28,835 nt of DNA. Source: a virus. Shown here one piece after another: positions 5,530 through 24,645 of the stretch (positions within the stretch are counted from its first letter, which is position 1; every line of letters begins with the position of its first letter). Both the position numbers and the translations under genes were made by a program. The DNA is taken from positions 1 to 28,835 of IMG/VR virus record IMGVR_UViG_3300032006_000060. The stretch is one strand, 5' to 3'. The notes under the pieces were generated by a model, which saw only the letters and a list, made by a program, of their open reading frames with translations, did no database searches and was not told where the DNA came from.

Positions 5530-5934
5530 TCATTCGTTTGCGGCCGATAGCTCTACAATTTTCTTTTGCAGTTCTTCTTCAGACAACTCAGAAGCATCTA
5601 ACGACAAATTAGTCTGGTCGATTCGCTGTAACTTTGGCTGCTCATATTCAGCAAGTGCTATTGCTAAACGCTCAATTGTTTCTTGATCTTCTACTTGTAT
5701 AGCTTTTGCTAACTGAATCTTAAGAATCTCAACAGCTGATGGCATTTCAGTTATAACTTCATCTCGAATCTTTTTAAACTCAGAGGCTGATAGTTTCATA
5801 GCTTCTCGAAGTGCTTTATTTTGTCGACGTTTCTCTGCGCCGCGTGCCTGCATCTCTCGAGCTGTATTAGAATCAATAACTGGTCGAAGTTGTGCAAGTG
5901 AATTAGGGTGCTTACCGCAATTTTCATAACCCAT
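5530..5934 (-). CDS. Probable terminase small subunit (134 aa)
   Basis: This is the only leftward gene in the left half. ATG is at 5934, preceded on its own strand by AAGGAGG. Residues 1-20 form a Gly/Pro-containing start (GYENCGKHPNSLAQLRP), and 25-50 are a basic RQNKALREAMKLSASEFKK segment. There follows a long helical region (VEILKIQLAKAIQ...ERLAIALAEYEQPKLQRIDQ) and an acidic C-terminal helix. An NPxSLxxLRP start, a basic helix and an EYxxPKLxRIDQ segment is a layout I associate with small terminases of marine podoviruses, which bind the packaging site. Helix-turn-helix is not obvious. Its strand matches the late genes though it stands 10 kb away from them. It could instead be an unrelated DNA-binding regulator. 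Confidence 0.5.
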   Translation of the reverse strand: MGYENCGKHPNSLAQLRPVIDSNTAREMQARGAEKRRQNKALREAMKLSASEFKKIRDEVITEMPSAVEILKIQLAKAIQVEDQETIERLAIALAEYEQPKLQRIDQTNLSLDASELSEEELQKKIVELSAANE

Positions 5935-6035
5935 AATAACCTCCTTAATATCTTTTAGGAGACATTTAAACTTTAAGTAAAATACCCTCGCTGTCGCTCG
6001 GGTATTTTTTAAACCAATTTATTTAGGACAAAACA
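5935..6035. promoter_or_regulatory. Divergent intergenic region between terS-like gene and nucleotide block
   Basis: These 101 bases must supply a leftward start for the 5530-5934 gene and, after the rightward terminator at 5979-6010, a rightward start for the genes from 6036. Only 25 bases lie between that terminator and the next ATG, too few for a complete sigma70 promoter. Either a compact phage-polymerase promoter overlaps the terminator, or read-through supplies the block. No promoter consensus could be verified. Confidence 0.35.
5979..6010 (+). terminator. Rho-independent terminator (copy 2 of a duplicated element)
   Basis: AAAATACCC (5979-5987) pairs with GGGTATTTT (6000-6008), followed by more T. 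It matches 973-1004 with one difference in the loop. It would stop transcripts that read rightward across the antisense terminase-like gene. The - strand also shows a stem followed by TATTTTA, so weak bidirectional action is possible. Confidence 0.82.
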
Positions 6036-6194
6036 ATGCTAATAAAACCTATAAACCCTATAGCACGAACTTTAGAAGATCCAAAGTATCGTCCTAAAAC
6101 CATACCTAGTAAAAAGGTATACAACAGAAAGAAAGAAAATGACAGATTACGGAAGAATAATAAAAGAATGCGAAAAGGATATGAAAAATCCTGA
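6036..6194 (+). CDS. Small basic conserved protein (52 aa)
   Basis: ATG at 6036 follows TTTAGGA, with TGA at 6192-6194. The 52 residues begin MLIKPINPIARTLEDPKYRP and continue KTIPSKKVYNRKKEN, ending in a very basic stretch. The NPxAxxL....YRxKxxxSKKxYxRK pattern matches a widespread family of very small Arg/Lys-rich phage and bacterial proteins of unknown role (from memory). The last 56 bases overlap, out of frame, the start of the DUF1599 gene if that begins at 6139, or do not overlap if it begins at 6238. Confidence 0.7.
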   Translation: MLIKPINPIARTLEDPKYRPKTIPSKKVYNRKKENDRLRKNNKRMRKGYEKS

Positions 6195-6540
6195 ATTCGT
6201 TAAAAGATATAACGCCTTATTTATGAAAGGAAATAAAATGGCAAAAGTAACAGCATCAACAATCTTACATGAAGCAGCTGAGCTTAAAGAAAAGAAGCAA
6301 GCTGATTATCAAGGAGACATGTGGACAGAAGAAGATTACTTTCCATATGGTAATAAGTCATACATGCATATGATTCATACTAAATATTTACGTATGAGAA
6401 GTCTTGCAGAAAATGAAGACAAAGAAATTAACTTTGAATCATTAGAAGATACACTTGTAGATATGGCAGTTTATTGCGCAATGTTTGCTGCGTATTTAGA
6501 AAATAAGAAATTAGAAAAACCTGTAATGAGGTCTGGATAA
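6139..6540 (+). CDS. DUF1599-like (nucleotide modification associated domain) protein
   Basis: A 133-residue protein whose residues 38-122 fit the DUF1599 pattern, also called nucleotide modification associated domain 1: an E..KK..DY element (ADY near 55-57), a Lys/Arg-bearing helix (YLRMRSLAE, 83-91), and an acidic helix ESLEDTLVDMAVY (about 100-112) followed by a hydrophobic end. The ExxED...D spacing recalls MazG-like metal-binding helices, so a nucleotide-handling role is plausible. Start choice is uncertain. ATG 6139 lacks a good ribosome binding site and overlaps the previous gene, whereas ATG 6238 has AAAGGA at 6229-6234 and would give 100 residues covering the domain. The stop overlaps the TS-family start (TAATG). 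The neighbourhood with a TS-family enzyme and MazG supports a role in modified-nucleotide supply. Confidence 0.75.
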   Translation: MTDYGRIIKECEKDMKNPEFVKRYNALFMKGNKMAKVTASTILHEAAELKEKKQADYQGDMWTEEDYFPYGNKSYMHMIHTKYLRMRSLAENEDKEINFESLEDTLVDMAVYCAMFAAYLENKKLEKPVMRSG

Positions 6541-7331
6541 TGACCAGATATGAAAGCAAATACTTACGTATAGCAGATGAGATCTTAATGCATGGTGATT
6601 ATAGAGAAACTAGAAATGGCTGGGTAAAATCTATATTTACTCAGACTTTACATTTTGATATGAGTGATGATCGATTTCCTGTTCTTACTACACGTAAAAT
6701 GAATATTAACAGCGTACTTGGTGAATATGCAGCAATTATTAGAGAACCTAATAATATAAAAGATTTTCAGAAATGGGGGTGTAATTATTGGAATGAGTTC
6801 GGAGATAGTAATACTGGTGATTTACGTATTGATTACGGTAATAGTTGGGTTGACTATAATGGTGTCAATCAAATCGAAAGATTAATATATAATATTAATG
6901 AGAACCCACATAGTCGAAGACTAATAGTAGATGCATGGAATCCTGAAAATATATCTACATCTAGTTTACCCTGCTGCCATTTTATGTATCAATTTTATGT
7001 AGATAATTCTCATTTAGATTTAACAGTCTATCAAAGATCTGGTGACTGGATGATTGGTGTTCCTAGCGATATGATATTTGCAGCAACTTTCTTAGCAAAT
7101 ATTGCAAGTATTACTAACTTAAAACCAAGAAGAATTAATTTAATTGTAGGTGACTGCCATATTTATGAAGAACATTTTAGTAAAGTAACTGAACAAATGA
7201 GTAGAGCTATAACAACACCACCATTATATAGTTTACTACGCCAATATAAATTTGCAGATTTTGAACCTACAGATTTAAATATATTAGACTATAAACATAA
7301 GGAGTTTATAAAGTATGACCTTAAAAAGTGA
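6540..7331 (+). CDS. Thymidylate synthase family enzyme with Asp177: likely dCMP (hydroxy)methylase
   Basis: A full-length (263 aa) member of the TS family, which transfers a one-carbon unit from methylene-tetrahydrofolate to C5 of a pyrimidine nucleotide. Visible landmarks, which coincide with E. coli numbering, are the double Arg HSRRLIVDAWN (126-127), catalytic C146 in SLPCCH, R166-S167-x-D169 in YQRSGDW, G173, and H207/Y209 in GDCHIYEEH. The residue aligned to Asn177, which selects dUMP, is Asp (GVPSD, residue 177). T4 dCMP hydroxymethylase has Asp at this place, and Asn-to-Asp mutants of thymidylate synthase shift to dCMP. The enzyme therefore probably acts on dCMP, making 5-hydroxymethyl- or 5-methyl-dCMP. 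Sequence alone does not tell which. An atypical dTMP synthase remains possible. It overlaps its neighbours on both sides, forming a cassette with DUF1599 and MazG-like genes. Confidence 0.85.
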   Translation: MTRYESKYLRIADEILMHGDYRETRNGWVKSIFTQTLHFDMSDDRFPVLTTRKMNINSVLGEYAAIIREPNNIKDFQKWGCNYWNEFGDSNTGDLRIDYGNSWVDYNGVNQIERLIYNINENPHSRRLIVDAWNPENISTSSLPCCHFMYQFYVDNSHLDLTVYQRSGDWMIGVPSDMIFAATFLANIASITNLKPRRINLIVGDCHIYEEHFSKVTEQMSRAITTPPLYSLLRQYKFADFEPTDLNILDYKHKEFIKYDLKK

Positions 7332-7818
7332 ATGGTTGTCAGACATAAATGATATGCACTATAAATTTGGTGCAACAGAGTGGGTAGATAACATGCACCG
7401 CTCAAAGAATTATAAATTATTAAAAGATTTTCTTGCATTCAGATTAGATTTTCTTGAAGAAGAATTCGAAGAAACTCAAGCAGCTTTCTTTAAGAATGAT
7501 TCTAAAGAAGTTGTTGATGGATTAATTGATCTTATTGTTATTGCAATTGGTACACTAGATTTATTTAAATGTGATGCTGATGTAGTATGGGATAAGATAC
7601 ATCATTCTAATATGGCTAAGAAACCTGGAGCAAATAAATCCAGACAAAATCCATTTGGTTTACCGGATATGGTGAAACCAAAAGATTGGGTAGCACCTAA
7701 AATAACTAAAGAAGATTGTGGTATACTACCTGACATTCTAAATCCTGAAGATAGAGATAAAAGAGATTTAGAAAATGAATTTAAAAATAATATAGCTAAC
7801 CTACAATATGAGGAATAG
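7315..7818 (+). CDS. MazG-like nucleotide pyrophosphohydrolase
   Basis: ATG at 7315 follows AAGGAG (7300-7305) and overlaps the TS-family gene by 17 bases. Residues 36-100 show the all-alpha NTP pyrophosphohydrolase signature: a first acidic helix RLDFLEEEFEETQAA (E48-E53) and a second helix with D68-G-L-I-D72 for Mg2+ binding, followed by a hydrophobic core and KIHHSNMAKK, typical of phage MazG/dUTPase-type proteins. It should hydrolyse a (d)NTP to the monophosphate plus pyrophosphate. Next to a probable dCMP-modifying enzyme, an attractive substrate is dCTP, which would both supply dCMP and remove unmodified dCTP as T4 gp56 does. That substrate is inference. The C-terminal 60 residues (Pro-rich then acidic) are an extension without visible motif. 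Confidence 0.75.
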   Translation: MTLKSEWLSDINDMHYKFGATEWVDNMHRSKNYKLLKDFLAFRLDFLEEEFEETQAAFFKNDSKEVVDGLIDLIVIAIGTLDLFKCDADVVWDKIHHSNMAKKPGANKSRQNPFGLPDMVKPKDWVAPKITKEDCGILPDILNPEDRDKRDLENEFKNNIANLQYEE

Positions 7819-8041: not shown

Positions 8042-9877
8042 ATGAGACTCACGTTTGATATAGAAACGGACGGTCTTGATGCAACTAAGATATGGTGTTT
8101 AGTTATACAAGACTTAGACACCAAACGCATCATGAGATATACAGATAACTCTAAATCCTATGACGGTGACATCAAAATGGGATTAACATTATTGCAACAC
8201 GCAAAATTACTAATAGCACATAATGGAATAGGGTTTGATGCATTAATAATAAAGAAACTTTATGATATTGATTTGTATAATGGAGATAGATTCTTTGATA
8301 CATGGATAGCATCTCAAGTATTAAATTACAGACGACCACATAAACATGGGTTAGCTGGATGGGGTGAATATTTTAAATACCATAAAGGTAACTACGATGA
8401 TTGGACAAAGTTCACTGATAAAATGATGGAGTATTGTGTTAGAGATGTTAAACTAAATACCATAATATACAATCATCTTATAGTAGAACTAAAAGATTTA
8501 GCAGAAAAGAATCCATTAATACGTAAAGGTTTAAAGAATGAGATGGCAACTGCTAAGTTCGATGCATACTGTAGGTACTATGGATGGTCATTCAATAAAG
8601 ATAAAGCCTTGAATTTATTAGATAAAATCAAATCTCGAATGAATGAAATAGAAAAAGTTGTTGAGCCTAAACTTCCAGCAGTTACTCGGTTAATTGATAA
8701 GCAACCTAAGACACCTAAGTTTACTAAGAAAGGTTATTACACTGCAGCTACTGCACGTATGCTAAGTGAGTATCTAAAAGTAGATGTTAAACCAGAGAAC
8801 ACTAAAGTCTGGCCAGCAGGTAGAGAGTTTCAAAGAAAGATAACAAAGCCTGCAAACCTAGGTAACTTAGAACAAGTTAAAGAATATCTTTATACAATCG
8901 GATGGGAACCTGATGATTGGAAGATGGAAAGAATGGGCAGAGAGTTCATTAAGAAAACACCTAAGCTAACTAAAACTTCTTTAGATAAATTAGGTTGGGA
9001 TGGATCTGCTATACATCATTGGACAACACTCAGATCTAGACGCGGTGTAGTAGAAGGTTGGATAGAAAACCTACAGTTTGGTAGAAGATTACATGGTAAA
9101 CTCTGGGTAGTGGGTACACCTACATTCAGATGTCGTCATGAAGTTATCGCTAATCTACCTGCAGTAACTGCTGAACTTGGTAAAGAACTTCGTGAATTAC
9201 TAGTAGCAGAACCAGGAAGAAAGATAGTAGGTGCTGACTCTAGCGGTAATCAATTCAGATCTCTTGCACATTATGCTAAAGATAATAACCTCACCAATCA
9301 GATTATGAGTGGAGATATACATCAGTATAATGCAGACATCATTGATACTGATAGACGTACTGCAAAAACCTGGATCTATGCATTTCTATTTGGTGCTGGT
9401 GCTACTAAACTTGGTAAAGTATTAACAGGTGTTGGTAATATCAAGAGAGGTAAAGAATCTATTGAAGCATACGGTAATGCGATTCCTGGATTGAAAGCAT
9501 TAAAAGATAAATTAGTTTCTATATGGAATAGAACAGATGCACAAAGTAGTGTTGAAGGTTATGTTCCTGGTCTTGATGGTCGTAAAGTATATACACCTCA
9601 GGATTATCAGACACTTAATTATCTATTACAAAGCTGTGAAGCTATCACAACTAAAGCAGCAGTAGCTTATCAAATGAATAAGATTAAAGAAGAAAAGCTG
9701 GATGCTGAACCTAGACTTTATTATCATGATGAAGTAGCTTGGTCTGCAGCAGATAAAGATGCTAACCGAGTATTAGAAATTCTAATAGAATCATTTGCTG
9801 AAGGTCCTAAAGAAGTGGGTGTAGATATTATGGCAGGTGATGGAACTATCGGTTCTAATTATGCGGAGGTGCACTAA
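8042..9877 (+). CDS. Family A DNA polymerase with 3'-5' exonuclease, T7 gp5-like
   Basis: A 611-residue replicative polymerase, shorter than T7 gp5 (704). The proofreading domain is intact: Exo I FDIETD (D6, E8), Exo II NGIGFD (D66) and Exo III YCVRD (D135). Polymerase motif A is GADSSGNQFR with catalytic D399. Motif B is AKTWIYAFLFGAG with K442 and Y446. Motif C is YHDE with D563/E564. Two fingers/palm positions differ from T7: the motif A Glu (T7 E480, Pol I E710, the ribose gate) is Gln404, and the O-helix Tyr (T7 Y530, Pol I Y766) is Phe450. The segment 205-300 is Lys-rich and would correspond to the thumb/thioredoxin-binding region in reduced form. AAAGGA lies before ATG 8042, and TAATG couples it to the next gene. 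It should work with the SSB and primase-helicase encoded nearby. Confidence 0.95.
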   Translation: MRLTFDIETDGLDATKIWCLVIQDLDTKRIMRYTDNSKSYDGDIKMGLTLLQHAKLLIAHNGIGFDALIIKKLYDIDLYNGDRFFDTWIASQVLNYRRPHKHGLAGWGEYFKYHKGNYDDWTKFTDKMMEYCVRDVKLNTIIYNHLIVELKDLAEKNPLIRKGLKNEMATAKFDAYCRYYGWSFNKDKALNLLDKIKSRMNEIEKVVEPKLPAVTRLIDKQPKTPKFTKKGYYTAATARMLSEYLKVDVKPENTKVWPAGREFQRKITKPANLGNLEQVKEYLYTIGWEPDDWKMERMGREFIKKTPKLTKTSLDKLGWDGSAIHHWTTLRSRRGVVEGWIENLQFGRRLHGKLWVVGTPTFRCRHEVIANLPAVTAELGKELRELLVAEPGRKIVGADSSGNQFRSLAHYAKDNNLTNQIMSGDIHQYNADIIDTDRRTAKTWIYAFLFGAGATKLGKVLTGVGNIKRGKESIEAYGNAIPGLKALKDKLVSIWNRTDAQSSVEGYVPGLDGRKVYTPQDYQTLNYLLQSCEAITTKAAVAYQMNKIKEEKLDAEPRLYYHDEVAWSAADKDANRVLEILIESFAEGPKEVGVDIMAGDGTIGSNYAEVH

Positions 9878-10407
9878 TGATTGTAGATATTAGAGTAACT
9901 CAAGATTTTATTTATCAATGTGATGCGCGTGCTACTAAATATAATCCAAGAGGTAGAACATACGAACAGCTAAGACTTGATATTGAATGTGAAATCTTTG
10001 AATGGTGGATGATTAATAAAGGAACTTGGAAACACCATAGTTCATGGGAAGTTGATGGTATCGATCAGATCTGGGGTAATATAGATGTTAAGTTTATTAA
10101 ATCCTGGTACAATATACCATGTAATAAAATGATTTACTTACTTAAACAAAGAGAAATAACTAATGCATTTCTTTTCTGCGAGTGGCATAAGAGACCTCAA
10201 CGTGTATTAAAACCTGGAGATAAAGTACAGGTTAATACTCTTGGTATCTTAGAATACTGGGAATTAATAGATCTAATTAAACCCTCTAAGTTTAACGGAT
10301 TTTATGCAGATATTCGTAAGCATTTAAATCTAACACCCAACACTAGTAAGTTTGAAGTAGGCAATACAACATACGATCATAGAAGAAAGGAACAAAATGA
10401 AAACTAA
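9877..10407 (+). CDS. Hypothetical protein, possible PD-(D/E)XK-type nuclease (176 aa)
   Basis: It is coupled to DNA polymerase by TAATG and overlaps the exonuclease gene by 11 bases. The first half contains RLDIECEIFEWWMINKG followed by VDGIDQIWGNIDVKFIKSW. A Glu-containing helix, then an Asp and a strand with D-V-K, has the order of a PD-(D/E)XK core (E, D, D-x-K), the fold of T7 endonuclease I and many phage repair nucleases. The second half (LKPGDKVQVNTLGILEYW, then ADIRKHLN) looks like an added beta domain. The position between polymerase and exonuclease fits a DNA-processing role. The motif is short and the call is tentative. Confidence 0.45.
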   Translation: MIVDIRVTQDFIYQCDARATKYNPRGRTYEQLRLDIECEIFEWWMINKGTWKHHSSWEVDGIDQIWGNIDVKFIKSWYNIPCNKMIYLLKQREITNAFLFCEWHKRPQRVLKPGDKVQVNTLGILEYWELIDLIKPSKFNGFYADIRKHLNLTPNTSKFEVGNTTYDHRRKEQNEN

Positions 10408-11537: not shown

Positions 11538-13119
11538 TTCATCAGATGCATTTACAATTTATGAAGACGGTGCATACTGTTTTTCATGTCAATATTCAAC
11601 TAAGAAAGTAAATAATATGAATGACTTAGAACCTGTTGCTAAACCTAATAGCAGCATAACACTCGATGAAATCCATGAGTTAAATAGTTTTGCAATTACT
11701 TCTCGTGGTATAAGTAAACAAGTAATAGATCACTTCGGAATTAAGATGGCTGTAAATCCTGACGGTTCCGGTGGTTCACATTTCTATCCTTACACTAGCG
11801 AAGGTAAAGTGATTGCATTTAAAGAACGTAAGTTACCTAAAAGTTTTATAGCACATGGTAGCTTCACTAATATAGAATTGTTTGGTCAAGCAGTTAGTAC
11901 CGGTGGTAAGACACTTGTAATAACTGAAGGCGAACTAGATGCATGTGCTGTAGCACAATGTTTCTTAGATAAATATAATAGAATCTTTCCTGTCGTATCG
12001 ATTCCAAGTGCATCAGGTTGTAAGGTTGTACTTGAGCAGAGAGAATGGATTAGAAAGTTTGAATCCGTAATATTATTCTTTGATAAAGATGAAGCTGGTC
12101 AAGCAGCAGTACAGAAAGTTGCTAAGATAATTGGTGCTGGTAAAGTTAAAGTAGCTAAGCTATTAGAAAAAGATCCCTGTGATCAGCTACTAAAGCATGG
12201 CTCTAAGAGTTTATTACAAAGCTACTGGGATGCAGAAACCTGGTCACCCGCTGGTTTAGTAATGGGTGAATCAATATGGGAACAGTTTCAACAGCGACAA
12301 AGAACTAAGTCAAGACCTTATCCTAAATGTTTAGATGGATTAAATCAAAAGCTAAAGGGTATAAGACATGGTGAGATTACTTTGTTTACTAGTGGCACTG
12401 GCTCAGGTAAATCTACTATCGTTAAAGAAGTTGTATTAGATCTATTAAAAGATAAAGAAAATAAAGTAGGTTTAATATCTCTTGAAGAAAGTGTAGGTGA
12501 TACAGCTGAGAAGTTTATTGAGATGGCACTGCAACAAAGGCTAGACCATTCAGAAGGTATGATGCTATCACAGGCTGAACTAAGACATGGCTTTGATACT
12601 GTATTTAAAGATGAGCGTTTAGTTTTGCTAGACCACCAAGGTTCTGTTGGAGATTCAACATTAACAGATAAGATAGAGTACATGTGTTTAATGGGTTGTA
12701 AGTATTTAATCCTAGACCACATAACAATCGCAGTTTCTGAAGGAGCTGAAGGTTTATCTGGTAATGAAGCAGTCGATAAAGTAATGAGTGACTTACTTAA
12801 GATTGTAAAGAAACATAACATATGGTTGTGTTTAATATCACACTTAAGGAAAGCTCCTGGAGGTGGTGCTTCTTTTGAAGAAGGTAAGCTAGCATCTATT
12901 GATGATATAAAAGGTAGTGGTTCTATCAAACAAATATCATTTGACATAGTAGCATTTGCTAGAAACCTAATCGCTGATAATGAAACTGAACGTAATACTA
13001 TTAAGTTTAGAGTACTGAAGTCTAGGTTTACTGGGCTAACAGGTGCAGCAGGTTCAGCGGTATATAGTAATAAGACGGGGAGACTAACAGCTACTGAAAG
13101 TATTTTTACGGAGATCTAA
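11503..13119 (+). CDS. Bifunctional DNA primase-helicase, T7 gp4-like
   Basis: A 538-residue replicative enzyme. The N-terminal zinc-binding domain has C8-x2-C11 and C26-x2-C29 and selects priming sites. The TOPRIM primase domain has ITEGELDA (E142) and FFDKDEAG (D194, D196). The RecA-like helicase has Walker A SGTGSGKST (K303), the catalytic-Glu motif SLEES (E328/E329), Walker B YLILDH (D405) and a downstream DDIKGSGSIKQ motif. It lacks the long acidic C-terminal tail of T7 gp4 and ends TESIFTEI, so polymerase contact may differ. AGAAAGGA precedes ATG 11503, which lies within the resolvase gene. The stop overlaps the dCMP deaminase start (TAATG). Confidence 0.95.
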   Translation: MSYKQTACPKCDSSDAFTIYEDGAYCFSCQYSTKKVNNMNDLEPVAKPNSSITLDEIHELNSFAITSRGISKQVIDHFGIKMAVNPDGSGGSHFYPYTSEGKVIAFKERKLPKSFIAHGSFTNIELFGQAVSTGGKTLVITEGELDACAVAQCFLDKYNRIFPVVSIPSASGCKVVLEQREWIRKFESVILFFDKDEAGQAAVQKVAKIIGAGKVKVAKLLEKDPCDQLLKHGSKSLLQSYWDAETWSPAGLVMGESIWEQFQQRQRTKSRPYPKCLDGLNQKLKGIRHGEITLFTSGTGSGKSTIVKEVVLDLLKDKENKVGLISLEESVGDTAEKFIEMALQQRLDHSEGMMLSQAELRHGFDTVFKDERLVLLDHQGSVGDSTLTDKIEYMCLMGCKYLILDHITIAVSEGAEGLSGNEAVDKVMSDLLKIVKKHNIWLCLISHLRKAPGGGASFEEGKLASIDDIKGSGSIKQISFDIVAFARNLIADNETERNTIKFRVLKSRFTGLTGAAGSAVYSNKTGRLTATESIFTEI

Positions 13120-13553
13120 TGGATAAACAACAAAGATACGATGAGTTATATTTAGATATAGCTCAGAGAATTAGTGAGATGTCTCACGATACTGACCATA
13201 AAGTTGGAACAGTAATCGTTAAAGATAATAATATACTTGCCTTTGGATTCAATGGTATGCCAGCTGGTATGTCTAATGAATGCAAGCATCCTAATGGTAG
13301 CACGCTACCTGAAGTTATACATGCAGAAGCTAATGCAATATGTAAGCTAGCTAAAAGTACAGGGAGTTCGGAAGGTGCTACATTATATAGTACTCTTTCA
13401 CCCTGTGTAGAATGCGCTAAACTCATAATGCAAAGTGGAATAAACAGAATTCTTTTTAGAGAAACGTATAAAGATGAAGCAGGTATATTGTTACTACTTA
13501 ATAATAATAAAGAAGTGAAAGGAGTAAAATGGAGGAGCAGCTTAACTACTTAA
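13119..13553 (+). CDS. Deoxycytidylate (dCMP) deaminase
   Basis: A 144-residue Zn-dependent deaminase that converts dCMP to dUMP. The Zn and catalytic motifs are intact: HAE (H68, E70) and PCVEC (C96, C99). The substrate-pocket signature GFNGMPAGMSNEC is typical of dCMP deaminases. It would feed dUMP toward dTMP by the host or phage route. It also competes with the proposed dCMP-modifying TS-family enzyme for dCMP, a combination also found in T4. It is coupled to the helicase by TAATG and overlaps the RNA polymerase start by 25 bases. Confidence 0.9.
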   Translation: MDKQQRYDELYLDIAQRISEMSHDTDHKVGTVIVKDNNILAFGFNGMPAGMSNECKHPNGSTLPEVIHAEANAICKLAKSTGSSEGATLYSTLSPCVECAKLIMQSGINRILFRETYKDEAGILLLLNNNKEVKGVKWRSSLTT

Positions 13554-16015: not shown

Positions 16016-19000
16016 TTAGCTTGTAGAGAAATCGATATTATTTGACCAGCTTGGACCTAGCGCTCCTCTAACTTCTCTCTTACCTTCTCTAACATTTTTC
16101 TTAGAAGCTGCTACACTTTCATCAATTTTAATATGACGGTTGATTGTTTCTAATAGCTTAGCTATCTGCGGACCTGATAATTTTCCAGTACTATTTAACT
16201 GTGCTATAATATCTTGAGCTACATCTTTTTTATTCTTAGCTAATAGACTTGCTTCTGATTCACCAGTAATTGCAGCAAGATTATAAGCATCCATACGACC
16301 CATTTTAATTGCACCAAGTTCTTGTTGTATATCAATTGCCGTATCAAATGCTACCCTACCTAAACGCTTGTTCCAATCTTTTAAAGTTTCTTTACCTCTT
16401 CTATAAGTTTTCCCTCTAAAAGTAGCTTCAGTTGCATCTCGATTCCATTTCAATCTTATATTTTTCTTAAGGAATCTAACTAAATTCTTATAAGGGTGGA
16501 TCGGACCATACTTATTTTGATACTGATCACCTGTAAATAATTCATAGAACTTTGCAAAGTCTTGCTGCATATCATATACTTTATTATCTTTACTAAGTTC
16601 TTCTATTTTCTTTTTACGTAAACCATAATACCAATTAAAGATTTTATCTGCAACATTCTCATTAATAATACTGTCTCGATGAATTTGATTTGCTATTTGT
16701 TTAACTGCTTTTAGACTTCCTGTATCTCCTATAAAAGCATCATAAACTTGAAAAACAAATGGTCGACCTACAATTTCTTCTTTACCATCTTTTATTCTTT
16801 TCATCTTTGCACCATTATTAAGTGCAGCTTTTTGAATCTGATCCCAGTAGTTTGTAGTTTTAAATTCAGCGTTTCCGTATTTATCTCTGCCTGTAAACTT
16901 AACATTATTAAAGACGCCCTGAGTTATATCAGGATCATATCCTTGTATCATAGCAGCTAAAATTCTACTTACTGTCCAGCCACCGATCTCATCTTCACCT
17001 TCAGTCCACCTTCTTATTGCCTGAGCCGAGGCTTCTCCTTTATAACTCCAGTCTTTTATAAGTCCAGATTTAGGTAAAGCATCTTGATCTCCTTCTTGTT
17101 TAGTAATTTTATATTGCATATCTTTATCTGGAGTAAACTCCATTCCAGCAGAGCGTACTGTTATTCCTGTAGGTTGATCCCATTCAATCATCTCATTTAA
17201 GAGTACTGATTGCCAAGCAATACTTTTTATAGTATCCATTGTATCAATTGTATGACCATCCATATTTGCATAGATAGAATCAACCATTAAGTTATGCAAG
17301 AAATCTACGACAGAAGGTAGACCTAACTTATTATTTGCAGCAGCTTCCCTAATCTTTGGATTTAAATCAACTGTCTTTTGAACATGCTTCTTTAATAGCA
17401 TTTTATTTTGGCCATATCCCATAGTCATAGGAGATTTCTTTAAGAAATTTGTTCTATCTTTAAGAGCTTCTGTTAATATAAAACCTAAAGCATCTGCTGA
17501 ATTACTACCAACCTTTCCTCGCCAAGCATCGCTCTGATTTAATCTACCGAACTCATCTATCATAGTATTAGCCATAGCATCTCTTAGATCTATGTATTCA
17601 TCTGATGACATTCTTTCAGCAAGTGGGATGGAAGTTATCATATCACCACGTTTAGTCATATTTAAACTACCAAACTGTGCACCCATTGTTAAAGTTCCAT
17701 GTGTCTGACCATCCATTTCCCATGACTGAGTGTCTACAAACTGCTGACCATTCTTTTTAGCATCTGTATACTTTGCTAAAGCCATTAAGTAATCACCTTG
17801 TTTTATACCTTCATGTTCATACTTAGCTAAGTAAGCTCTCAATGGTTCGCTTATAGTATTCCCTTTAAACTGTTGTATTAATGCACTTCTAATTTGACGG
17901 CCTTGTCCACTTGTTGCATTTTTAATTTGACTTAAGTAAGAACCAATTACTTTCTTATCAATTGATTGGTTGAATCTTATTAACTCATTTCCCCATGCTA
18001 CATACTGATTCCATAATCCTTCGTTAGGATTTTCTCTGGCCTGTACTTCTTCTTCTGCAAAGCGTCGTAGTCTTTCTTCAGTAGGCATACGACGACCTCT
18101 ATCTCTTTTCCAACTATAAGTATTTGATATTTTCGGATCTTCAAACAGACGAGCATACATTCCTTCTTGCCAAGCTTCTTCTAATAAACTATTAGTACCA
18201 GGTTTCCAGATAAATTTGTTTTGTCCGCTAACCACGTTCCTAATCATTGAATGTGATTGAGGATTATAAAGAGTTTGTTGTGCATGCATTCTGCCAGTTA
18301 ATAACTGCAGTGCATAAGTTAAATACTTAAGTCCTCCTCCATCATATCTTAGCATAGCCTCTGCAATATTTACAGACTTCTCTCTTTCAAGTCTAAAGAT
18401 TGTTCTAGGTTGATAGTTATCTGCAACCTTTTGTGCTACATTTATTTCTTCTTGAGATACTGCTTTAGGATCAGCAGTTCGTCGTCTTTTAAGATCATCT
18501 ACTCTTTCATGTAAAGCATTCTTTTCACTTTGTAAATCATCAAATTTACTTCTACCGATATTAAATATATCTGCATAATAATTTCTTTCATTATTAGGTT
18601 CTACATACTGATCATACCTAGCTTCATTAGGATCCTGTTGAATTCCACCACCATGTGCTAAGGCATATGCATAAAGACCTGCACTTAATGTTGATCTATT
18701 AACATCATTATCCATACCAACAAGATTTTGATTAGCCATTGCATTGAAAGCCATCGTCGTATCACCAATCTCTTTAGACATCCAGGTTGTCATTCTCCTG
18801 GTAATCATCCCACCTTCACCAGCAATTACACCACCGTTAGTTGAAAATTTCTGAGGCTTAACTTCTGTTGCATCAAATAAACCTGTAAACAATCGATACA
18901 TATCTTCATAGAGACTAGCTCCCTTAGGAGTAATAACATATTCTACTGTTAACTTATCTGTACCTCCTGCCTTAGGTCTTCTTAGTAAACCATTTATTGG

Positions 19001-20239
19001 ATCAGCTTCTGCTGAGTTAGCTTTGTAATATAACTCTTTAGCTCTTGAACCTAAATGAATAAAGACTTCTTTATTTATATCTTTTATATCATCCATATAA
19101 GCATCAGGATCTGTTTGTCCTGTAGTTAATGCTTTAAATCTCATGTATTCTCTATAAATATCTTTGCCAACCTGTTCAAGGCCATCACTCTTTCTAACTA
19201 CATATTCTTTTACTTGCTGTTCTGCCTTAGGATCATTCTCCCTAGGTCTAGGAACTTTAGTATCAGCATCTTCATCAATTATTATATCTGCTACTTGCTG
19301 ATCTAGATCTGTTGCAAACATAGAAGTAACAAAAGATTGTTCAGCATTCAATACCATAATGTTAGAGAGCTCAGGATCAACAGCTATCTGTCCTTTTGTA
19401 TCTAAGTAACCTGCTCCTAGAATATCTAATACAATATTAGTTAAGTTAGTATTTAAAGTATTATCACTCTTACGTATAGGAGCTGTTGCAGATTCAACTT
19501 CTTCCGTACCAAATATAAAACTCTCTCTTACTCCTGGGGTTGGAGTTCCTATTCCAGAGGGCTTTGCGGCTTGTGCTACTTTCCAATTCCCACCTATAGT
19601 AGGATCGAAGAGAGCTGCACGCTGAGCTTGGTTTACCTGTATGTTCATGTTCTGTGCTGTTCGTGCAGCAGTTGTTCCCCACCTAGATAATGCATCAATA
19701 AAAAGTTTACCTGCTCGGCCAGTAGCTCTCATCTCTAAAGCAGATTCTTCAAGAACTTTACGTGTTAAAGCAGGTCTCTTTATTTTTAAACCAGCTGATT
19801 CATACTTTCCTAATAATCGATTATCTATTTTTAGTTGTTGTAACTTCTCATCTTGCGCAGCCTGGTCATCACCTATTCTTGCAGCAAAAACAGGTTCACT
19901 TAATCTTGCAGCTAATTCTTCTGGTGATAAGTTGGCAGTTGCATCTACTTGTTCAGCAACAGGAACCTCCTCTAAACCAGTAGTCGGAGCAGTACCTAAG
20001 TCAGGAAAAGCTGCAGCCACTTGCTCAGCGGCTTTCATTCCTTCAAGCTCACCTTCTAATTGTTGTTGTACGTTCGCACCCTTTGCTCTAAGTCGATCCT
20101 CCTCAGTTCTTGCTAGAAGATCTTCATGAGTTCTCATTCCGATATTCTTTGCTAAGCTTGCTATTCTTTTTCGTTCTTGTAATACAGCAGAGGGTGTTGT
20201 GCTTACCCCTACCGCTCCTGGTATATTAGTTTGTACCAT
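16016..20239 (-). CDS. Putative virion-associated single-subunit RNA polymerase (1407 aa)
   Basis: The last gene of the late cluster. The central part carries all the landmarks of T7/N4-type single-subunit RNA polymerases in order. They are a GR motif with Asn-Pro-Gln downstream (LLTGRMHAQQTLYNPQ, R650; compare T7 GRVYAVSMFNPQ); motif A EMDGQTHG (D843); motif B KKSPMTMGYGQ (K934, Y942, same K-x7-Y spacing and MT as T7 K631/Y639); and motif C FQVYDAF (D1167; T7 HDSF). Spacings are close to those of T7 and N4 polymerases. N-terminal (about 1-600) and C-terminal (about 1200-1407) regions are large, mostly helical and unassigned. In phage N4 such a giant polymerase is packaged and injected to transcribe early genes. 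The neighbours here are ejection-type proteins, so packaging is likely but is inference. ATG 20239 follows AAGGAGA on its strand, 11 bases after the upstream gene. Confidence 0.82.
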   Translation of the reverse strand: MVQTNIPGAVGVSTTPSAVLQERKRIASLAKNIGMRTHEDLLARTEEDRLRAKGANVQQQLEGELEGMKAAEQVAAAFPDLGTAPTTGLEEVPVAEQVDATANLSPEELAARLSEPVFAARIGDDQAAQDEKLQQLKIDNRLLGKYESAGLKIKRPALTRKVLEESALEMRATGRAGKLFIDALSRWGTTAARTAQNMNIQVNQAQRAALFDPTIGGNWKVAQAAKPSGIGTPTPGVRESFIFGTEEVESATAPIRKSDNTLNTNLTNIVLDILGAGYLDTKGQIAVDPELSNIMVLNAEQSFVTSMFATDLDQQVADIIIDEDADTKVPRPRENDPKAEQQVKEYVVRKSDGLEQVGKDIYREYMRFKALTTGQTDPDAYMDDIKDINKEVFIHLGSRAKELYYKANSAEADPINGLLRRPKAGGTDKLTVEYVITPKGASLYEDMYRLFTGLFDATEVKPQKFSTNGGVIAGEGGMITRRMTTWMSKEIGDTTMAFNAMANQNLVGMDNDVNRSTLSAGLYAYALAHGGGIQQDPNEARYDQYVEPNNERNYYADIFNIGRSKFDDLQSEKNALHERVDDLKRRRTADPKAVSQEEINVAQKVADNYQPRTIFRLEREKSVNIAEAMLRYDGGGLKYLTYALQLLTGRMHAQQTLYNPQSHSMIRNVVSGQNKFIWKPGTNSLLEEAWQEGMYARLFEDPKISNTYSWKRDRGRRMPTEERLRRFAEEEVQARENPNEGLWNQYVAWGNELIRFNQSIDKKVIGSYLSQIKNATSGQGRQIRSALIQQFKGNTISEPLRAYLAKYEHEGIKQGDYLMALAKYTDAKKNGQQFVDTQSWEMDGQTHGTLTMGAQFGSLNMTKRGDMITSIPLAERMSSDEYIDLRDAMANTMIDEFGRLNQSDAWRGKVGSNSADALGFILTEALKDRTNFLKKSPMTMGYGQNKMLLKKHVQKTVDLNPKIREAAANNKLGLPSVVDFLHNLMVDSIYANMDGHTIDTMDTIKSIAWQSVLLNEMIEWDQPTGITVRSAGMEFTPDKDMQYKITKQEGDQDALPKSGLIKDWSYKGEASAQAIRRWTEGEDEIGGWTVSRILAAMIQGYDPDITQGVFNNVKFTGRDKYGNAEFKTTNYWDQIQKAALNNGAKMKRIKDGKEEIVGRPFVFQVYDAFIGDTGSLKAVKQIANQIHRDSIINENVADKIFNWYYGLRKKKIEELSKDNKVYDMQQDFAKFYELFTGDQYQNKYGPIHPYKNLVRFLKKNIRLKWNRDATEATFRGKTYRRGKETLKDWNKRLGRVAFDTAIDIQQELGAIKMGRMDAYNLAAITGESEASLLAKNKKDVAQDIIAQLNSTGKLSGPQIAKLLETINRHIKIDESVAASKKNVREGKREVRGALGPSWSNNIDFSTS

Positions 20240-20250
20240 TTATGTTCTCC

Positions 20251-23200
20251 TTAACTTTCAAATACATCTGCAATTTTTTGTGAAGCCCATCTATTAGTCT
20301 GGTTAAAAGGACCAGTTAATGGTCCTGTCTTAAATAATTTATAAAGACCTGGCTGTATACTACTGTCTGTAATAGCTCCTTCAACTAATTGTGTAGCACC
20401 TGTCGCTGCTCTTGTTAAGTTAGATATAGCAGCAGCTTCTCCAGATATTCCATGAAAAACTTCTTCTACTATATTACTAGAAGATGTTTCATAGATAGGA
20501 AAGAAAAAGTTTAAAGGTCTCTCACCTACGCCTAGCATACCTGATGCACCTAAACCTCTCTGTAGTTTTTCCATATGATCTAAGTAAGGACTGGACTTTC
20601 CATACTTTAATAAATCTTTTAAATGTTGTGCAGCAAATCCTAATGCAATCATCATTGTCATAACAGCAAAAGCATTATACTTCATTGCTGGTGTACCACG
20701 TCTAACGTAATCACCCCACAGTCTAGGAATATGATTTGCTGTAAAGGTTGCAATGAAACCTTGGAACTGTGTGAACATTGCTAAGTGTGGATTCTGATAG
20801 AACAACGGTCTGTTCGCAGTACCAGGTAATGCAACAGCTTCATTAATAAAATTGAATTCAGCATTAGCAAATATTCTTTCAAGCCTCTCATTATTTCTTC
20901 TCATATTAAGAATATATTCTTCTCTTGTTTGATCAGCTGGTTTTGTAATAGGTAAACTATCTATCTCTAAAAGTTCTTCTATATTAATTCCTAAGTTTCT
21001 TAGATGCTCTTCTGATTCTTGTACTTCATTATCATATACCGCACCACTATTTCTTTGTTCTCTTATAATACCTAAGTGATGCATAATAAAATCAGCAGCT
21101 TGCGCACCCCTTAAGTTACGATTAAGATCTGTCCATTGCTGTAAGAATATTATTCTAAAATATTTATCTAGAAAATATCTTGAAGCAAATGTATTTTCTG
21201 TAGCACCTGTAGTTTGCGCTGCACCTGTATCCCAAGTAAAATAACCTAATCTTTTTAAACGTGCTTGTGCTTTTTCTTTAGCAAGCTGTCCTTCAACTGA
21301 TGTTGCAAACTTAAAGTTGGGTGTTGCGGTTGTCATTGTTTTCCAGATACCATTTCCAAATTCTACAGCAGTATCTTTTATAACATTATTTATTTGTTCA
21401 GGACTAAGCGCTCTTACAATCATCATGTACTCTACAAAAGAAGAGATCGTAGCCATCGGTAAACCTGCAAGGGTTGTCCATACTAATAGATTCTTTTGTA
21501 AGTTAGCGACTTCAGGACTTGCTATCTTCTTATAGTTACCTGATTCACCATCAAGATAATCTTGTATGAAAGCAGCATGAGCATTTCCTTCTTCTCTAGT
21601 TATCTCACCGCTTTCTATTGCCTGCTCTATACCTTCATTAAGAATTTCATTGTTATCCCCTAGAAATCTTTGATAAGTAATATATCTTGCAGCAGACTTA
21701 GCAGCATTAGAAATATTTATAAACAAATCCTGTTCCATCCACTTACTTAAGACAGGATCGTCTGCCATATTTAATCTTCTTTCTCTATGTGCAGAAGGAA
21801 TATGAACTCCTCTCCCAACTTCAAATAAAGAATCTTCATCTACAAGTTCATCATTATCTAGGATAGCTTGTGTTAATTTCTTAGCATCATCTCTAGTATA
21901 TCCTTTGTCCATCAGATCTCTTATAAATCCTTCCCGATCTTTTTCAATCTTAACTTTATCTATCGATCTATATCTTCCAATGTAGTTTTGAATAAAACCA
22001 ACACCAAACTCTTTGCCTGTATCACTCTCTCTATTTGGTGTACCATCAGCATTAAAGTAATGAAGTCTTGCATTTTTTTTATCTTTAAATAATCTGTTAC
22101 CAAATGTGTTAAGGCGTTTTGTTATATTAATATAGAAGTCTCTATTATTTCTTATCACTTCAGGGAATTTATATTCACCAGTACTAGGATCTCTAGCATC
22201 AAAATCTACTTCATCAATAGGAGTTTCTTTAATTATTTGAAAGAAATCATAGATATGCTTAGAGATTTGTAGTTGATTAATTGTTTTGTATCCCAATGCT
22301 TTTGCTACAGAAGCTGCACTAAAACTTGCCATATCAGGATTGCCATCAGGTAAAACTCCAACTTGAACTTCGCCTAATTGATTTTTAAAGAATGCTAATG
22401 TATTGTGCTTAAAGTTTTCAAGAGCTTCCCCTGAAAATACAGGGTGTAAGAAAGCACCAAGTCCTGCTGAATACTTTCTAACGCTAGGTGCTTTAAGATT
22501 GGACTCTCTAAAGAATTGGACCGGAGCTCCCTTCCATAATATAGGGAAAGCTCTAGCAGCATCTTTAATCTTTTGCCAAACATCTCTAGCCTTAAGTTGT
22601 TTCCTACCTAACTGTTTCTTCTCATCAAAGCTAGTTACTTCTTGTAGTTCTCTAATCCTTGCTTCAGTATTCTGTCTTACTTCATCTGAAATCCGAGGAT
22701 CTGCTAATTGTAATTGAAGAGTTTCTAGCTCAGCTCTAGCTGTAGCTTCTCTATGCTGTGCATCTTTTTTAAGATCAGTAAAATTACTTTGGATTGTTGG
22801 AGCAGGTCCATGTGCATAATGCTGTTTTATATCACCAACCTTTACACCTTCTGGTAGAGTATCACCTTCTTCCCAGTAAGTATGTAGATGTGCATCCTGT
22901 TCTTTTTGCATTCTACTTTCTTCAGACTTTCTCCAATCTTCAGCTGGAGATTTTCTAACTTGAACATCTGTCCATGCTCCTACATCATAAGCTGTTCCAG
23001 GTACTGAGAATGCAGAACCTAAAGTTCCACCTGCTATGAAAGCATTAACCATTCTATTGTGAAGTTCTACTGTATCAAATGGCCGGTCACTACCTAATGT
23101 CGCTGCCATGTATTGAGTAAGTTCCTGTCCTACTTCTGTTGAGGATTCTATACCAAATCCAACACCAGCTCTAGCAGCAAAAGCCCTTAAGATATTTCCA

Positions 23201-24636
23201 TACTTCAATTGTTCCTTAGCAACATTAGCTGCGTTACCTACTAGCTTAGCAGCTTCCATTCTTGTCATCCTAGCTACAGCACTTCTTGCTTCAGCAATTG
23301 TCATACCCGCCGCTACATTTACCGGTTTATTTTTAAATGCTTCAGCCATTGCTTCACGATACCTAGGACTTAGCAACGTACCTGTCATCTTACCCATTAA
23401 TAAATGAATACCTAAACGATCAAGGACTGCCATTGTAACACCACTAGCTACTGCTAAGGTTGCACTTTTATTATCGCCTTCCATATCATTCCAGGTCATA
23501 CCAGTATACATCGAGACAGGTGCCATCATACTTGCGCCAGCTAATCTAGCCATACCTACACCGGTTGCCGAAGCTAATGCAGCTCCTCCAGTCATTGGAG
23601 ATAACAAAGCGCCTGCTGCTGTAACTCCCATGTAAGGAAGTGAGACAGCTAGCATATTTCCAGCATACTCAAAGAATCCCCCGACACCATCTACATCCCA
23701 TTCATTATCAATCACCTTACCATAAGGATCTAGAACAGGTTTAAGTATATTTAATTTTAACTCAGGCTTAGTTGCAAGGTATTCTCTTTGTCTTTTAATA
23801 CCTGCTTCTCCTAGATTTTCTAACCAATTAAATCCAGTCTTCTCACCGATTAATTCAGCAGCTCCATATAAACTTTCTATAACACCGGTCCATCCTACAT
23901 CAAAAGAATCAGACCAAGGATGAAGTGATTTGTTATCAATCGTTCTATCCGCATGCCTTTGCTGCACACGATAGTTAGAATACTTGGCAGCTTGTGATAG
24001 CCTCCAAGCATAAGCACCTTCTGATTCTCCAGGTTGTCTTGGAGCTTTTAACTTAGCAAGTTCAGTTTCATTTAAAGCTGCCTTTGCAAACTCGGTATCA
24101 TACCACTGTTCAGATTTAATTGAATCATTTAAAGCAATAGCAGATTTTTCATAATCATTTAAAGATTGCTCAGAGATATTTCTTTGAGATCTCTTTGCCA
24201 TACCATATTGATACTTATCAATCTCTTCTTCAGAACTATACCTGCTTAACTTATTAATACCATAACGGCTAAGTGTTTCTGTAAAGTCTCTACCATACTC
24301 ATCAGTTAATCTAACAAGCTGTCGACCATGAACATCTAACTTAGGAGAACCATCTGGATTTGTAAGATACTTTACATTATTATATCCAAATTGACTTGCA
24401 AGACTTTGGATTTGTTTGTATGCTTCTAATCCTCCAGGAGTTCCAGGTTTAAAGTAACCTGATTCCATAAGTCTATTAATTTCTGGAGCGCTTAAACCTT
24501 CTATCCTAAGTAACTTACCTTCTTCATTTACTAATGTATCTCCATCAATAAATGTATGACCACCACTTCCTGTTATAGGTTTAGGTACTTCAAGAGTAGG
24601 TATATCTATCCTAGGAAGATTACTAAAGTTTGCCAT
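20251..24636 (-). CDS. Large internal virion/ejection-type protein with N-terminal SNase-like domain (1461 aa)
   Basis: The first 130 residues look like a staphylococcal-nuclease (TNase) fold: FIDGDTLV (D31, D33), LLRIEGLSAPE (R44, E52) and DVHGRQLVRL (R105), matching SNase DGDT, R35, E43 and R87. The Ca2+ ligand D40 is replaced by S49, so activity may be lost or altered. Residues about 320-400 are rich in Gly, Ala and Met with hydrophobic stretches (EYAGNMLAVSLPYMGVTAAG), compatible with membrane insertion on ejection. The rest is mostly helical with coiled-coil parts. The end contains a conserved-looking block (FTQFQGFIATFTANHIPRLW; MKYNAFAVMTMMIALGFAAQ) that I associate with internal proteins of marine podoviruses. 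It sits between the lysozyme-bearing protein and the putative polymerase, 9 and 11 bases away, in one late unit. It was probably assembled in the capsid and injected. Confidence 0.75.
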   Translation of the reverse strand: MANFSNLPRIDIPTLEVPKPITGSGGHTFIDGDTLVNEEGKLLRIEGLSAPEINRLMESGYFKPGTPGGLEAYKQIQSLASQFGYNNVKYLTNPDGSPKLDVHGRQLVRLTDEYGRDFTETLSRYGINKLSRYSSEEEIDKYQYGMAKRSQRNISEQSLNDYEKSAIALNDSIKSEQWYDTEFAKAALNETELAKLKAPRQPGESEGAYAWRLSQAAKYSNYRVQQRHADRTIDNKSLHPWSDSFDVGWTGVIESLYGAAELIGEKTGFNWLENLGEAGIKRQREYLATKPELKLNILKPVLDPYGKVIDNEWDVDGVGGFFEYAGNMLAVSLPYMGVTAAGALLSPMTGGAALASATGVGMARLAGASMMAPVSMYTGMTWNDMEGDNKSATLAVASGVTMAVLDRLGIHLLMGKMTGTLLSPRYREAMAEAFKNKPVNVAAGMTIAEARSAVARMTRMEAAKLVGNAANVAKEQLKYGNILRAFAARAGVGFGIESSTEVGQELTQYMAATLGSDRPFDTVELHNRMVNAFIAGGTLGSAFSVPGTAYDVGAWTDVQVRKSPAEDWRKSEESRMQKEQDAHLHTYWEEGDTLPEGVKVGDIKQHYAHGPAPTIQSNFTDLKKDAQHREATARAELETLQLQLADPRISDEVRQNTEARIRELQEVTSFDEKKQLGRKQLKARDVWQKIKDAARAFPILWKGAPVQFFRESNLKAPSVRKYSAGLGAFLHPVFSGEALENFKHNTLAFFKNQLGEVQVGVLPDGNPDMASFSAASVAKALGYKTINQLQISKHIYDFFQIIKETPIDEVDFDARDPSTGEYKFPEVIRNNRDFYINITKRLNTFGNRLFKDKKNARLHYFNADGTPNRESDTGKEFGVGFIQNYIGRYRSIDKVKIEKDREGFIRDLMDKGYTRDDAKKLTQAILDNDELVDEDSLFEVGRGVHIPSAHRERRLNMADDPVLSKWMEQDLFINISNAAKSAARYITYQRFLGDNNEILNEGIEQAIESGEITREEGNAHAAFIQDYLDGESGNYKKIASPEVANLQKNLLVWTTLAGLPMATISSFVEYMMIVRALSPEQINNVIKDTAVEFGNGIWKTMTTATPNFKFATSVEGQLAKEKAQARLKRLGYFTWDTGAAQTTGATENTFASRYFLDKYFRIIFLQQWTDLNRNLRGAQAADFIMHHLGIIREQRNSGAVYDNEVQESEEHLRNLGINIEELLEIDSLPITKPADQTREEYILNMRRNNERLERIFANAEFNFINEAVALPGTANRPLFYQNPHLAMFTQFQGFIATFTANHIPRLWGDYVRRGTPAMKYNAFAVMTMMIALGFAAQHLKDLLKYGKSSPYLDHMEKLQRGLGASGMLGVGERPLNFFFPIYETSSSNIVEEVFHGISGEAAAISNLTRAATGATQLVEGAITDSSIQPGLYKLFKTGPLTGPFNQTNRWASQKIADVFES

Positions 24637-24645
24637 ATTAAACTC

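Follow-up and report, generated by a model that had tools for sequence, protein, structure and literature searches.

The gene at positions 6540-7331 on the plus strand of the window, by which we mean the whole 28.8 kb viral contig analysed, encodes an enzyme of the thymidylate synthase (TS) fold with Asp at position 177. In the reading favoured here, to which we give somewhat better than even confidence, it is a dCMP C5-methylase that would form 5-methyl-dCMP and dihydrofolate and, together with neighbours that remove dCTP, would bring 5-methylcytosine (5mC) into the virion DNA. The fold, the residues, the clade and the gene linkage of this enzyme are established in the following. Although a system of this kind is already known, no description of this clade, of its independent origin or of its residue signature seems to exist in the papers found.

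The window phage and its TS-like enzyme

The window comes from a marine phage and encodes a T7-like RNA polymerase, a family A DNA polymerase and a primase-helicase on one strand. The RNA polymerase is nearest to that of Roseobacter phage CRP-7 (36% identity), whose layout is similar, and the early gene order of Pelagibacter phage Kolga also resembles that of the window. The three giant open reading frames (ORFs) of the window (1407, 1461 and 1225 amino acids) are located on the minus strand at 16016-28323 and are almost without database matches, at least one of them being structural. Two further proteins could not be assigned, namely the product of a lone minus-strand ORF of 134 amino acids inside the plus-strand early region (5530-5934), for which no convincing family match was obtained, and a protein of 176 amino acids encoded between the DNA polymerase and an exonuclease (9877-10407), which has no match in Pfam or PHROG.

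The ORF at 6540-7331 is uninterrupted from ATG to stop and encodes 263 amino acids. The Pfam family PF00303 (Thymidylat_synt) covers the protein almost fully with an E-value of 5.4e-68, and in PHROG it matches phrog_160 with an E-value of 2.6e-73. The predicted structure, modelled from 29 sequences, has a mean pLDDT of 93 and shows the TS fold, and its best matches in the PDB are all thymidylate synthases. For the comparison of single residues, the enzyme was aligned with E. coli ThyA, T4 gp42 and SPO1 gp29, using the sequences from their own records. The alignment with ThyA bears out the original prediction that C146, R166, D169, H207 and Y209 are retained at E. coli numbers, and E58, Y94, R126 and R127 are also present at these numbers. 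With its near-full-length profile match and the catalytic Cys, Arg, Asp, His and Tyr, the protein belongs to the PF00303 superfamily, with sequence identities of 29% to E. coli TS, 20% to T4 gp42 and 21% to AXL1 gp63. It had also been anticipated that automatic annotation would label such a gene as thymidylate synthase, and nearly all relatives are indeed annotated in this way, with one named “pyrimidine hmase”.

Position 177 and substrate choice

Residue 177 had been predicted to be Asp, to match an Asp of T4 dCMP hydroxymethylase and to be the residue that distinguishes dUMP from dCMP. The codon is GAT (7068-7070, plus strand), the residue aligns with T4 Asp179, and the role ascribed to it agrees with published mutants and structures (PMC8670742, PMC6400193, PMC5175136). 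Residue 177 is reported to dictate substrate choice, and Asn-to-Asp mutants of TS yield 5-methyl-dCMP (PMC8670742); in the reverse direction, the D179N substitution lowers the kcat of the T4 enzyme about 3600-fold (PMC6400193). Asp is common to MilA, BcmA and the T4 enzyme at this position, where TS and SPO1 have Asn (PMC5175136).

Asp177 is present in all 104 sequences of the clade including the window, down to about 35% identity, whereas all 156 canonical TS (80 viral and 76 genome-encoded) have Asn177. The window enzyme therefore lacks the Asn of canonical dUMP-specific TS and carries the Asp of the T4 type. A chance substitution or a sequencing or assembly error in the window is ruled out by the invariance of Asp in the 104 sequences, and with Asn in every canonical TS checked, Asp177 is a fixed character of the clade. 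Because of this invariance, the published mutants and structures, and neighbouring genes that are common to T4-type and Xp12-like phages and rare beside ordinary TS, the enzyme is very probably specific for cytosine. The part of the original prediction that concerned the choice of cytosine is thus well supported. It is highly improbable that the enzyme is an ordinary TS that tolerates Asp177 and converts dUMP to dTMP: every other catalytic residue agrees with TS and so do the best structural matches, but position 177 is invariant on both sides, the published mutant switches to dCMP, and ordinary phage TS genes hardly ever have the operon partners described below.

Phylogeny and distribution of the Asp177 clade

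Scanning viral contigs with the window protein alone gave 31 relatives. When an alignment served as the query, one scan yielded 459 candidate loci, and 80 of them were retained. Four further members of the Asp177 clade come from bacterial assemblies (L206, L207, L208 and L209). Two of these, L208 and L209, are assigned to Candidatus Gracilibacteria, and their gene (at about 6001-6771) has an uninterrupted reading frame only under genetic code 25, in which TGA specifies glycine. It is followed by a dCMP deaminase gene, and both contigs are probably of phage origin.

A maximum likelihood tree was constructed without alignment columns 143, 147 and 177. In this tree, the Asp177 clade of the window forms one side of a branch with an SH-aLRT support of 100 and adjoins the canonical TS, while the T4-type hydroxymethylases (100) and the Xp12-like enzymes (99) form separate groups. 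SPO1 and MilA are located on long branches, which makes their exact placement unsure. The window clade groups neither with T4 gp42, from which direct descent is ruled out by the tree, nor with the Xp12-like enzymes, to which its likeness is only functional. Since the three groups with Asp are separate, cytosine specificity seems to have had more than one origin in the TS family.

The members of the clade are mostly aquatic phages of several kinds. Cultivated members are Kolga (Pelagibacter), VPMS1 (Vibrio), PH1 (Pseudoalteromonas), KF-1 (Edwardsiella) and Amaethon (Dickeya), of which Kolga is the nearest annotated isolate by its TS-like protein (gp35; 45% identity). The description of Kolga mentions no thymidylate synthase (PMC8163748). 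In literature searches, no paper was found on modified bases in the DNA of Kolga or KF-1, nor on the base composition of VPMS1.

Neighbouring genes

The TS-like gene is enclosed by two overlapping genes on the same strand. The upstream gene (6139-6540), the stop codon of which extends into the beginning of the TS-like gene, encodes a DUF1599-like protein (nucleotide modification associated domain 1), whose match to PF07659 falls slightly short of the cut-off (E = 4e-5). The downstream gene (7315-7818), which starts before the TS-like gene ends, encodes an all-alpha NTP pyrophosphatase of the MazG type (PF01503, E = 4e-9; DR2231-like in the PDB) and is a candidate dCTPase. Of the 72 distinct clade loci, 59 have a MazG-type gene and 36 a DUF1599-like gene at a distance of at most 300 bp from the TS-like gene, the latter count after removal of a false match in L207, which was due to an unrelated C-terminal domain.

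For the comparison groups, a neighbour was counted anywhere in the fetched flank, which is looser than the limit of 300 bp. MazG-type and DUF1599-like genes occur around 2 and none of the 80 canonical viral TS, and around 2 and none of the 76 genome-encoded TS. Around the T4-type hydroxymethylases they are frequent (36/80 and 69/80), as they are around the Xp12-like enzymes (8/8 and 6/8). When the window clade was compared with the canonical viral TS by Fisher tests, the results were 1e-26 for MazG-type and 4e-15 for DUF1599-like genes, values to be read with the restriction that related loci are not independent.

In phage AXL1, both domains are fused in a single protein, gp64 (L043, 4820-5593), with E-values of about 1e-23 and 1e-20 against the two neighbours of the window enzyme. 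Its N-terminal half is homologous to the protein encoded at 7315-7818 and its C-terminal half to that at 6139-6540. The gp64 gene directly precedes the Asp177 enzyme (gp63), which is followed by dCMP deaminase and dihydrofolate reductase (DHFR). T4 gp56 dCTPase shares only a short region with the MazG-type neighbour (hhalign E = 0.07, probability below 1%), and no homology to gp56 was demonstrated for either neighbour. The model of the DUF1599-like protein reaches a pLDDT of 75, and its structural matches to dCTPase and MazG-like proteins have E-values above 0.3, so that its fold is uncertain. A cyanophage MazG has been reported to hydrolyse dCTP and dGTP, as cited in PMC9038755. The simplest reading is that the neighbouring proteins of the window hydrolyse dCTP.

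Methyl or hydroxymethyl product

The original prediction left open whether the enzyme is a methylase or a hydroxymethylase and leaned on the T4 enzyme. The answer turns on whether the methylene intermediate is reduced or hydrated, which in the T4 enzyme involves the residue three positions before the catalytic Cys (C-3, position 143). In the window, it is Leu143 (codon 6966-6968, plus strand), followed by Cys146 and His147 (codons 6975-6980, plus strand), as counted from the ORF start in the alignments, and both Leu143 and His147 are present in all 104 clade sequences. The C-3 residue is Asp in every hydroxymethylase checked, i.e., T4, MilA, SPO1, SP8, M6, ViI and PhiW-14, regardless of whether they act on dCMP, CMP or dUMP, a rule built on about seven known hydroxymethylase lineages. 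The Xp12-like enzymes have Asn here, and both TS and the window clade have Leu. As position 143 shifts with alignment gaps in MilA and the Xp12-like enzymes, residues were counted back from the catalytic Cys without gaps. In the T4 enzyme, this residue (Asp145) activates water and is essential for hydroxylation, and the D145N mutant is inactive, with hydroxymethylation abolished (PMC6400193).

The T4 enzyme also lacks the C-terminal tail of TS (PMC6400193). The tail from position 212 has a median length of 52 residues in the window clade compared with 53 in TS and 16 in the T4-type enzymes, so that the clade has kept it. When metagenomic contigs with and without cytosine modification are compared, position 147 is one of the two with the largest differences (PMC8670742). 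However, His147 does not mark all methylases, as the Xp12-like enzymes have Pro147, and with Asn143 and Pro147 in these presumed natural methylases, the combination of Leu143 and His147 is not a general methylase signature. What the Xp12-like enzymes and the window clade have in common is that neither carries Asp at C-3, and the window clade has Asp177 without this Asp and a tail of TS length.

Because of Leu143, His147, the TS-length tail and the position of the clade nearer to canonical TS than to T4 gp42, a dCMP methylase is favoured over a hydroxymethylase, and the leaning of the original prediction towards T4 is not upheld. Given cytosine specificity, these sequence features indicate that the product is probably methyl rather than hydroxymethyl. 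A dCMP hydroxymethylase, in which the methylene intermediate is hydrated to 5-hydroxymethyl-dCMP as by T4 gp42, would have to position the water differently from T4. Such an enzyme would share Asp177 and the DUF1599-like and MazG-type neighbours with the T4 type and would release tetrahydrofolate, a reaction that needs no DHFR, and none was found in the 22 related records searched. An altered folate pocket would also suit it. Position 176 is Phe in TS, Ser in the window enzyme, and Ser or Ala in the clade, and position 83 is Trp in TS and most of the clade, and Phe in the window enzyme. With Ser176 and Phe83, the folate site of the window enzyme is therefore not identical to that of TS. Nevertheless, we consider a hydroxymethylase unlikely in view of the missing C-3 Asp, the retained His147 and tail, and the branching of the clade with canonical TS; in addition, neither a T4-type dNMP kinase nor a carbamoyltransferase was found in the clade records searched. 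Against the preferred methylase it must be held that the combination of Leu143, His147 and Asp177 has its precedent in laboratory Asn-to-Asp mutants and not in a natural methylase, that no DHFR was found in the 22 records, and that no kinase for 5-methyl-dCMP was recognised.

Further genes of nucleotide metabolism

Each of the 22 related records contains exactly one gene of the ThyA fold, and neither ThyX, a second ThyA nor a C5 DNA methyltransferase was detected in them. A carbamoyltransferase was likewise not found in these 22 records, and the T4-type dNMP kinase (gene 1), which was found in T4 itself, was not found in the 13 clade records searched or in AXL1. Many clade loci are fragments, so such absences are weak evidence. 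As methylation produces dihydrofolate, DHFR would have to be supplied by the host.

A dCMP deaminase is encoded at 13119-13553 on the plus strand of the window (PF00383, E = 3e-23; phrog_174, E = 5e-49) and in 31 of the 72 clade loci, in some of which it is the immediate neighbour of the TS-like gene. The methylase could thus serve the supply of thymidine instead of DNA modification, with dCMP being converted to 5-methyl-dCMP and then to dTMP by the phage deaminase. Some dCMP deaminases accept 5-methyl-dCMP. The deaminase adjoins the TS-like gene in several members without pyrophosphatase and on the two Gracilibacteria contigs, and the window genome is AT-rich, with no ThyX or ordinary ThyA in its relatives. 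However, deamination of dCMP itself followed by host TS would achieve the same, no deaminase is present in the examined region of Kolga, T4-type and Xp12-like phages carry a deaminase alongside true base modification, and the candidate dCTP pyrophosphatase linked to the enzyme speaks for the removal of dCTP. We therefore regard this route as very unlikely, and the base is likely used in DNA rather than for dTMP.

The enzyme might also open a longer pathway of cytosine hypermodification. As the contig is incomplete, genes for later modification steps could lie beyond the window, and its relatives have many unannotated genes. Besides the carbamoyltransferase not found in the related records, a methyl product gives no hydroxyl group for glycosylation, and we give this possibility hardly any weight.

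Proposed pathway and implications

In the proposed dCMP methylase pathway, a one-carbon unit would be transferred from methylene-tetrahydrofolate to dCMP and reduced, yielding 5-methyl-dCMP and dihydrofolate. Cys146 would attack C6 of dCMP, Asp177 would hold N3 and N4 of the cytosine and protonate N3, and Glu58 would activate the folate. Leu143, His147 and the C-terminal tail are expected to keep the TS geometry, in which the exocyclic methylene is reduced by the folate hydride and not hydrated. The MazG-type protein, perhaps together with the DUF1599-like protein, would cleave dCTP to dCMP and thereby both deplete the usual precursor and supply the enzyme with substrate. The 5-methyl-dCMP would then be phosphorylated by a host kinase or an unrecognised kinase, and the family A DNA polymerase (8042-9877, plus strand; PF00476, E = 5.5e-22; phrog_17) would have to insert the modified nucleotide in place of dCTP. 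The resulting 5mC in the virion DNA could confer resistance to host nucleases. We infer the methyl product, the dCTPase role, the incorporation into DNA and the benefit to the phage by comparison with the systems described below.

Very few phages are firmly known to have all their cytosine replaced by 5mC. Xp12 is the foremost of them, and for AXL1 such a replacement is suspected. That an aquatic phage lineage including a SAR11 phage evolved whole-genome 5mC independently of Xp12, through an Asn-to-Asp change in TS and a dCTP-removing operon, is an assumption whose chances we judge to be evenly balanced. Nearly all members of this lineage are deposited in databases as ordinary thymidylate synthase, and as some are cultivated, their base modification is directly checkable. 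More generally, genes of the TS family could be read at two positions, with 177 separating uracil from cytosine and 143 apparently separating methyl from hydroxymethyl, which would correct many annotations. If true, this bears on the restriction escape of these phages and on methylation-sensitive sequencing reads.

Comparison with known systems

Canonical ThyA is nearest to the window clade in the tree and shares with the window enzyme 29% identity (E. coli), the catalytic residues except 177, Leu143, His147 and the tail length. It differs in Asn177 and Phe176, where the clade has Asp and Ser or Ala, and in its operon. The mutants N177D of E. coli TS and N229D of L. casei TS combine the TS scaffold with the cytosine-selecting substitution and were reported to form 5-methyl-dCMP (PMC8670742). 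However, they are engineered, and the clade also departs from them at 145, 176 and further positions, to which the window enzyme adds 83.

T4 gp42 has the TS fold, the cytosine-selecting Asp (179) and, in its environmental relatives, DUF1599-like and MazG-type neighbours in common with the window enzyme. In contrast, it belongs to a different clade, shares 20% identity, has Asp145 (143 in E. coli) and Thr at 147, and has lost the tail; the phage also has the gene 1 kinase and the gp56 dCTPase. On one contig with a T4-type hydroxymethylase (L188), a second TS-like gene is located nearby, which among the queries used is closest to SPO1 dUMP hydroxymethylase. The CMP hydroxymethylases MilA and BcmA also have Asp at position 177 but prefer ribonucleotides and act in antibiotic biosynthesis, and MilA has Asp at C-3 and Thr at 147. 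Gene 50 of Microbacterium phage Pikmin (L376), annotated as thymidylate synthase and itself uncharacterised, combines a C-3 Asp with Thr following the Cys and another Asp near position 177, and by these residues looks like a dCMP hydroxymethylase.

The closest functional parallel is the Xp12 type, represented here by the relative AXL1 (gp63) and not by the Xp12 genome MT664984 itself. All cytosines of Xp12 are 5-methylcytosine (PMC9206674, PMC7653180). AXL1 is a close relative with an Xp12-like restriction resistance and digestion pattern, the genetic mechanism of which was called unknown (PMC9206674), and its DNA probably carries 5mC. The window enzyme and the AXL1/Xp12 type are alike in the TS fold, Asp177, the absence of Asp at C-3 and the TS-length tail, and both have a MazG-type pyrophosphatase, a DUF1599-like domain and a dCMP deaminase nearby. 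They differ in that the Xp12-like enzymes form a separate clade with about 21% identity and have Asn143 and Pro147 in place of Leu143 and His147, and in that the neighbours are fused and accompanied by a DHFR gene in AXL1, whereas the window clade has separate genes and no DHFR was detected.
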